Origin: Candidatus Mediterraneibacter pullistercoris
GTDB taxonomy: Bacteria; Bacillota; Clostridia; Lachnospirales; Lachnospiraceae
Direction of reading: 5' to 3'
DNA: 64,000 bases
NCBI GenBank assembly: GCA_019116885.1
Contig: DXAU01000017.1
Coordinates: 1 to 64,000, forward strand
Made by a program: the position numbers and the translations under genes. This document shows, piece after piece, positions 25,878-27,096 of this stretch (position 1 is its first letter; each line of letters begins with the position of its first letter). The notes beneath the pieces were generated by a model that was given only the letters and a program-made list of their open reading frames with translations, was not told the DNA's origin and did not search any database.

Positions 25878-25975
25878 TTACTGATTAATTTGATTTTCAG
25901 GCTTTCCTTTTGGCCGGGATTCTGATATAATGTAAAAGCTGTGGCATCATAATCAGTCCACGGCACATATGAGAT

Positions 25976-26064
25976 GGAGACGTATCGAAGTGGTCATAAC
26001 GGGGCGCACTCGAAATGCGTTTGTCCTTCGGGGCACGAGGGTTCGAATCCCTCCGTCTCCGCCA
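25976..26064 (+). tRNA. tRNA-Ser (anticodon CGA)
   Basis: The acceptor stem GGAGACG pairs with CGTCTCC. The anticodon stem GCGCA/TGCGT closes the loop CTCGAAA, giving anticodon CGA, which reads UCG. There is a long variable arm, as in tRNA-Ser, and a T arm with GTTCGAATC. The discriminator is G26061, and CCA is encoded at 26062-26064. Confidence 0.97.
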
Positions 26065-26075
26065 GAGAATCCAGT

Positions 26076-26107
26076 CCTCAAGCGGGTTTCCGTTTGAGGG
26101 CTTTTTT
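26076..26107 (+). terminator. terminator after tRNA-Ser
   Basis: CCTCAAGCGG (26076-26085) pairs with CCGTTTGAGG (26090-26099), followed by GC and six T (26102-26107). Confidence 0.9.
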
Positions 26108-26319
26108 GTTCCCACAATCCTGTCCTCCTCAACCGCAAGCAGTTCCTCACGGAGTTTCAGCATCTTCTCCCTGTGGTTGTAGGTTTCAATATCCATAACG
26201 ACTAAATCTCCCTCGCCATTCTTGGTAAGGAAAACTGGCTCTGCGGTCTTTCTGCACATTTCAGCAATCTCGCTGTAATTCTGACGGATTGCTGCGGATG
26301 GACGAATATTCATATCCAC
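26105..26319 (-). pseudogene. Phd/YefM-type antitoxin, truncated at the tRNA-Ser terminator
   Basis: About 70 residues match the N-terminal DNA-binding part of Phd/YefM antitoxins: MNIRPSAAIRQNYSEI, then PVFLTKNGEGDLVVMDIETY, then LREELLAVEEDRI. At about residue 72 the frame enters the terminator and then the antisense of the tRNA, so the C-terminal toxin-binding tail is missing. The remaining open frame to 25897 is tRNA antisense. No RelE/Doc toxin gene is next to it. This looks like one end of a mobile element that integrated at, or was deleted up to, the tRNA gene. Confidence 0.75.
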
Positions 26320-26649
26320 ACCTCCCGTTTGTATTTGGTAGTAGTATTCTAATCATATTACATTTATTTCATGATACCAAGTCAATATGCGCAGAAAAAT
26401 ATATGATGTTGAACAGCAAAAAGAACCTCTTTTTTTCGCCTCGTTTTCTGCTGCAATTCTGATATATGACCATAAATCGTTCAATGCTAAGAGGTACATT
26501 TTTCATGACTGGGAAGCCGCCCTCTCATCTTTTCGCCCTTTCTGGTCGAAATTGGTCGAATTTTTTATCTTGTCTGTCATAATATTACATTTTACGATAT
26601 TATAGGTGTTCCAGAGAACAGGCTGCTCAAATGAGAGGGGCACAAAAAG
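26320..26649. other. intergenic stretch with tandem Spo0A-box-like repeats
   Basis: A/T-rich and without a convincing gene. It holds two direct repeats of GGTCGAA at 26544-26550 and 26554-26560, 10 bp apart; the Spo0A box is TGTCGAA. A possible -10 TATTAT lies at 26598-26603, with no good -35. It leads into the orphan Spo0A-domain gene. Confidence 0.6.
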
Positions 26650-27096
26650 ATGAATTATGAAAAAGTTATAATCAGCACTCTGGATTCTTTCGGCGTGAGC
26701 CGTTCCTATACCGGATATGGATATGTGGTATATGGAATCCAGCTCATTATCGAAGACAAGGAGCGTATCGAATGTATCACAAAATCCCTGTACCATGATA
26801 TTGCTGAACATTATCACACAACCTGGAACTGCGTTGAGAAAAATATGCGCACGGTCATAAATTCCGTCTGGAAATCTCACAATGACAGACTGCTTGAAAT
26901 CATCTTCAACAAATCAAACCGGAACAAGAAGCCCACAAACAAAGAATTTTTAAAATACATGTATGATTATGTCATACAGACTGGAAACGAAATCCGGATC
27001 GCAGACAGACTTGTCCCCATCATATGTCCAATCTCAAATAGTTACTGCGAAGCGCTGAGCGTGTTCTATGTCAATCTTTCAAGAATGATGAAGTAA
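26650..27096 (+). CDS. orphan Spo0A C-terminal (DNA-binding) domain protein
   Basis: 148 residues with no receiver domain. Residues ~5-105 follow the Spo0A effector domain: a GYGYVVYGIQLIIED helix, then ITKSLYHDIAEHYHTTWNCVEKNMRTVIN, which parallels the Spo0A recognition region (TKxLYPxIAxxxNTTxxRVERAIRHAI), then KPTNKEFLKYMYD, which parallels its KPTNSEFI tail. About 40 further residues form a unique C-terminus with three cysteines. The ATG has AGAGGGG nine bases upstream. Without a phosphorylation domain it may be a constitutive DNA binder or a competitor of Spo0A. It lies in the tRNA-adjacent accessory patch. Confidence 0.8.
   Translation: MNYEKVIISTLDSFGVSRSYTGYGYVVYGIQLIIEDKERIECITKSLYHDIAEHYHTTWNCVEKNMRTVINSVWKSHNDRLLEIIFNKSNRNKKPTNKEFLKYMYDYVIQTGNEIRIADRLVPIICPISNSYCEALSVFYVNLSRMMK

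Follow-up and report, generated by a model that had tools for sequence, protein, structure and literature searches.

A survey of sporulation initiation sought response regulators with a Spo0A_C domain because this domain 'uniquely distinguishes' Spo0A among them (PMC6136694); proteins carrying the domain without a receiver lie outside such a survey. Two further papers report that G2, C4 and G5 of the TGTCGAA box are Spo0A contacts (PMC3485338), and that the A257V substitution in B. subtilis abolishes sporulation via spoIIA or spoIIG with abrB repression kept, whereas in Paenibacillus polymyxa A257V does not abolish sporulation (PMC9195935), so that residue 257 is not a universal off-switch. 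No description of a receiver-less Spo0A_C protein was found in the titles and abstract openings of the open-licence PMC papers listed.

The stretch of DNA analysed (the window) comprises 64,000 nucleotides of contig DXAU01000017.1 from Candidatus Mediterraneibacter pullistercoris and encodes such a protein, hereafter the orphan, downstream of a promoter with Spo0A-like boxes. The best explanation, held at a rough probability of 0.42, is that the orphan is a receiver-less paralog of Spo0A whose gene is activated by Spo0A~P; the orphan would bind GTCGAA independently of phosphorylation and most likely serve as a feedback brake on Spo0A~P. Beyond the initial annotation of this locus, the analysis adds a promoter layout common to spo0A and kinase genes, a control from genomes lacking the orphan, a position-1 dialect of the boxes, and a wider family of receiver-less proteins. 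The features are, in order:

26532..26537, minus strand: degenerate inverted box TTCGCC (exact form TTCGAC), from the upstream alignment
26544..26550, plus strand: Spo0A-like box 1, GGTCGAA, its GTCGAA core beginning 25 bp before the -35 element
26554..26560, plus strand: Spo0A-like box 2, GGTCGAA, offset from box 1 by 10 bp and separated from the -35 element by 9 bp
26570..26575, plus strand: -35 element TTGTCT (TTGTNT in 38/38 upstreams)
26593..26598, plus strand: -10 element TACGAT after a 17-bp spacer (TACGAT in 32/38, TANNNT in 38/38)
26633..26641, plus strand: probable ribosome-binding site GAGAGGGGC, from conservation of the GAGAGG columns
26650..27096, plus strand: orphan gene, encoding the receiver-less Spo0A_C protein of 148 residues, from the ORF, Pfam match and orthologs
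26671..26970, plus strand: Spo0A_C DNA-binding domain, residues 8-107
27025..27048, plus strand: C126-P-x-S-x3-C133 motif of the C-terminal tail, conserved in 39/39 orthologs

The orphan gene and its protein

Residues 8-107 of the orphan match Spo0A_C (PF08769) at 2.2e-30 with 105.2 bits against a gathering score of 25, and the predicted fold agrees with the Spo0A-DNA complex; by this score and its Spo0A effector fold the protein belongs to the Spo0A_C family, and the same Pfam scan found no receiver family anywhere in the 148 residues. The initial annotation had described exactly this, a 148-residue Spo0A effector protein without a receiver, and had let its proposal stand or fall with a profile match to the effector domain, which proved strong. 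With the Spo0A equivalog model TIGR02875 the orphan scores 60.7 bits, below the cut-off of 200, over model positions 147-253 of 262 only; this is a partial match with no N-terminal phosphorylatable receiver, and the orphan is not a member of the equivalog. One separate, full-length Spo0A is encoded in the same genome (G000:C50).

A search of 37 genus genomes detected orthologs of the orphan in 33, the one in G023 just as two contig-edge fragments, and none was found in G011, G017, G034 or G035; one genome holds a second copy (L197, G033:C12), which also has exact tandem boxes upstream. The coding sequence indicates that the orphan is under purifying selection, the median dN/dS being 0.11 across 16 gapless orthologs (120 pairs, usable dS from 58). 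The gene neighbourhood is mostly common to relatives, with rearrangements. Upstream of the orphan in the window, a Phd/YefM antitoxin-like ORF (3.3e-9) occupies 25897-26319 on the minus strand, its far end overlapping a tRNA gene.

Boxes and promoter layout at the orphan, spo0A and kinase genes

The two GGTCGAA repeats with a 3-base gap and 10-bp period, which the initial annotation had placed about 90 bp upstream of the orphan, end exactly 89 bases before its ATG. Raw counts of such tandems are low. The exact GTCGAA-N4-GTCGAA pattern has a single occurrence in the 2.45-Mb genome, upstream of the orphan, but this rarity alone proves little because roughly 0.3 exact sites are expected from base count alone (an estimate), and tolerating one mismatch gives 7 tandem sites, compared with 27 when the reversed pattern is searched as a control. 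Across the 37 genus genomes there are 24 exact tandems, fewer than the 45 (25 + 20) of the reversed control; of the 24, orphan upstreams account for 14, those of one kinase gene for 5 and other places for 5, 11 loci having been read directly and the other 13 placed by coordinates. The off-register tandem spacing (N3) gave 12 sites, each with one mismatch, against 52 in the control, and the off-register inverted-to-direct spacing (N6) occurs at 4 places in the 37 genomes, on contigs without the orphan.

It is conservation rather than rarity that decides the matter. The promoter sample consisted of 38 upstreams from loci L004-L056, at least 60 bp long and distinct in their last 120 bp, and in a scan that demanded TTG[TC]NT nine bases downstream of box 2, with the -10 left free, every one of them (38/38) reads TTGTNT-17-TANNNT with an exact GTCGAA 25 or 15 bp before the -35. 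As looked for in a Spo0A-box-controlled promoter, a box thus stands in a conserved place ahead of a sigma-A-type promoter in 38/38, and chance repeats are ruled out by this exact core at a fixed promoter distance, which marks the boxes as real. The exact core lies at 25 bp in 29/38, at 15 bp in 29/38 and at both in 20/38. The conservation of the repeats among relatives, on which the initial annotation had also relied, accordingly holds, though box 1 (as GTTGAA, GTAGAA or TACGAA) and box 2 are each degenerate in 9/38. The initial annotation did not include the inverted box, whose exact form TTCGAC, seen in 21/38, stands 7 bp ahead of the GTCGAA in box 1. In the 5' leader, a palindrome TGTTC-N4-GAACA at 26607-26620 is shared by some relatives, while others have a degenerate version, and no Rfam match to it was found at E 0.1.

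The same layout recurs at spo0A and at a gene for a short histidine kinase. Spo0A was present in 23/23 genus genomes searched, and in the 22 of these 23 loci used as the promoter sample (the partial G009 locus being omitted) the start of GTCGAA is in 22/22 precisely 25 bp upstream of the -35, with a spacer of 17-18 bp. The kinase (243 aa; HATPase_c with a sub-threshold HisKA match) is encoded at G000:C15:25844-26572 (L224), beside a gene that is HIT-like by eye, and was found in 29/37 genomes at the cut-off used. Upstream of it, an exact GTCGAA, GTCNNN 10 bp on, then 9 bp, TTG, 17-18 bp and TANNNT occur in 29 of 30 loci, the lone exception being G025, where the kinase match is just 38%. The 25-bp box position is likewise kept in 29/30, among them the loci of all four orphan-less genomes (in one of which, G034, the kinase frame is interrupted by a stop); the orphan is therefore not what maintains the layout there, and Spo0A, found in every genus genome searched, is the natural candidate. 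On this comparative evidence the layout is of Spo0A type and independent of the orphan. With its deeply conserved Spo0A-type promoter, the 243-aa protein is itself a candidate Spo0A kinase.

The box is not seen at two genes expected to be Spo0A targets: GTCGAA was not found within 300 bp upstream of spoIIAA (0/20), and it occurs upstream of spoIIE in 1/18, on the reverse strand at 400 bp ahead of the profile match. For SpoIIE itself, the best frames of the genus (L162 and others; 23 genomes) are 411-523 aa long and match the model only from about position 313, compared with 619-819 aa in order-level relatives, so that this genus seems to lack the N-terminal part.

The boxes of the three promoters differ at position 1. 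The consensus 7-mer TGTCGAA is absent from the orphan promoter of the window, which has GGTCGAA twice, and T stands at position 1 of box 1 in 1/38 and of box 2 in 5/38 orphan upstreams. At spo0A and kinase boxes T precedes GTCGAA in 22/22 and 23/29 respectively (45/51, against 1/38 for orphan box 1; Fisher 3e-17, the promoters being related by descent and the counts thus not independent). Five genomes (G002, G019, G036, G027, G008), all with the orphan, have kinase boxes in the orphan's form. Given the 1/38 against 45/51, a protein other than Spo0A may read the orphan boxes; however, Spo0A binding to GGTCGAA stays plausible because G2, C4 and G5 are retained. The consistent change hints at either a second reader or a setting of affinity. 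The proposal in the initial annotation that Spo0A controls the orphan is consequently plausible, favoured by the layout common to spo0A and the kinase gene and weakened by the near absence of T at position 1 of box 1; its two other proposals, self-regulation and a decoy role, are possible readings of the sequence.

This signature, strongly unlike that of the spo0A and kinase boxes, is one argument for a tentative alternative in which the boxes are the orphan's own operator, the protein recognising RGTCGAA with a specificity unlike that of Spo0A and autoregulating through the inverted and tandem boxes. It agrees with the presence of Cys and Lys at positions 211 and 214 in 39/39 orphans, replacing Arg at both and suggesting that specificity may have shifted, and with the exact TTCGAC seen in 21/38 orphan upstreams, none being visible in 28 kinase upstreams. 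The layout itself speaks against an own operator, being that of spo0A and the kinase gene and maintained by the latter in 4/4 orphan-less genomes, as do the relatives L058 (on the reverse strand) and L060, which carry TGTCGAA.

The wider receiver-less family and the effector-domain residues

Further Spo0A_C matches were found in a search of 299 genomes of the same bacterial family, from which the best-scoring 29 other loci, rather than a random draw, were taken; their open frames of 113-207 aa could not accommodate a receiver in addition to Spo0A_C, and they count as receiver-less. GTCGAA lies within 300 bp upstream, on either strand, in 16 of the 28 with enough upstream sequence, compared with 14 of 209 controls from L034-L056 and L058-L086 without the orphan promoter (Fisher 7e-10), and 11 of the 16 box-bearing genes have TGTCGAA. 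The nearest relatives L059 and L060, from other genera, place a box 15 bp before TTGTNN-17-TANGAT, and they alone account for the orphan's promoter layout in 2/14 of these genes with a forward box (control offsets 2/518). In a tree of 67 domain rows, Spo0A forms one group (96/88) and the orphan joins L058-L060 of other genera; 4/29 other receiver-less rows lie nearer Spo0A, in a tree with many weak forks and several long branches.

A broader and rather doubtful reading would have a whole family of receiver-less Spo0A paralogs in gut bacteria of Lachnospiraceae type, their genes activated via Spo0A boxes and their products reading the Spo0A regulon without regard to phosphorylation, with an RGTCGAA dialect in this genus, the kinase promoter drawn into it in some species, and a cysteine switch able to lift or apply the brake.

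Among the matches listed, a class-wide search returned mostly full-length Spo0A. No relative of the orphan was found in viral contigs scanned with the orphan alignment, and the other receiver-less proteins as queries gave 8 IMG/VR loci (L254-L261). Phage records yielded 9 matches at 29-34% identity; the one inspected, MT835718.1 (L196), is a full-length Spo0A with a receiver. It comes from a fecal record labelled bacteriophage that may be bacterial DNA. Plasmids gave 4 matches, 3 annotated as spo0A and 1 without annotation.

The residues 211, 213, 214 and 217 of the Spo0A recognition helix are taken here to face DNA, and residues 231 and 236 presumably matter for activation. All 39 orphans retain the counterparts of E213 and R217, both are present in 26/26 Spo0A rows, and the other receiver-less rows have E213 in 28/29 and R217 in 29/29. 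On the activation side, F236 is kept in 39/39 orphans, position 258 is Asp in 34 and Glu in 5, and position 231 is Leu or Met in 39/39. Position 257, Ala in 25/26 Spo0A rows, is Tyr in 36, His in 2 and Phe in 1 of the orphans. Because key DNA-contact residues are kept and part of the activation surface is changed, a brake is the most likely role. Residue 257 is variable among the other receiver-less proteins (A 8, T 7, S 5, V 4 and Y 2 of 29), so that a brake role cannot be generalised to them.

The opposite sign of feedback, with the orphan as a phosphorylation-independent co-activator at Spo0A targets, is unlikely. Box placement upstream of the -35 would suit activation, F236 and the acidic position 258 are retained, and A257V is reported to be tolerated in P. 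polymyxa (PMC9195935); against these stand the replacement of A257 by Tyr, His or Phe and the Leu or Met at 231 in all 39 orphans.

The cysteines of the tail, to which the initial annotation had drawn attention, are real features of the family of orthologs: C126, P127, S129 and C133 are found in 39/39, as is C61, and with L059 and L060 added C61 and C126 are still invariant. The CP.S...C tail is a possible, putative sensing part. That C126, C133 and perhaps C61 form a redox or metal sensor reporting cell state at Spo0A boxes would fit this invariance but is improbable, the tail model being weak (pLDDT < 50 for residues 115-117 and 120-134). A decaying Spo0A fragment with chance boxes, conceivable from domain count as the orphan is a partial Spo0A, was already made highly improbable by conservation, with the gene in 33/37 genomes, dN/dS of 0.11, a conserved promoter and its own tree group away from Spo0A.

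Proposed role and comparison with known systems

For the preferred reading of the orphan as a feedback brake, rising Spo0A~P would activate spo0A, the kinase gene and the orphan through the layout that their promoters share. In turn, the orphan protein would bind GTCGAA boxes without phosphorylation and, with its altered activation surface, compete with Spo0A~P; it would probably limit its own promoter as well. If true, a conserved second reader of Spo0A boxes, itself expressed from a Spo0A-type promoter, would represent an added feedback layer in the sporulation control of gut Clostridia and could explain differences between species, and the cell may use the orphan to adjust the spore-forming decision.

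Compared with the Spo0A effector domain (PF08769; structures 1lq1 and 1fc3), the orphan has no receiver and an extra cysteine tail, shares about 30-31% identity with the host Spo0A domain, and differs from it by Cys at 211, Lys at 214 and Asn at 215 in 39/39 and Thr at 218 in 38/39. Its promoter resembles the spo0A promoters of the genus in the GTCGAA 25 bp before the -35 and in the spacer (17-18 bp at spo0A); it differs in having R instead of T before the GTCGAA of box 1, in a further box at a 10-bp offset, exact in 29/38, and in TTGTNT with TACGAT where the spo0A promoters have mostly TTGATT with TATAAT. Like the orphan, the remaining receiver-less Spo0A_C proteins from this bacterial family consist of a single domain of about 110 residues, but they have Arg at 214 in 26/29 and Cys at 211 in just 11/29. 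Among phage families, phrog_24603 of PHROGs, with 111 positions and function unassigned, matches the orphan at 1.1e-19.
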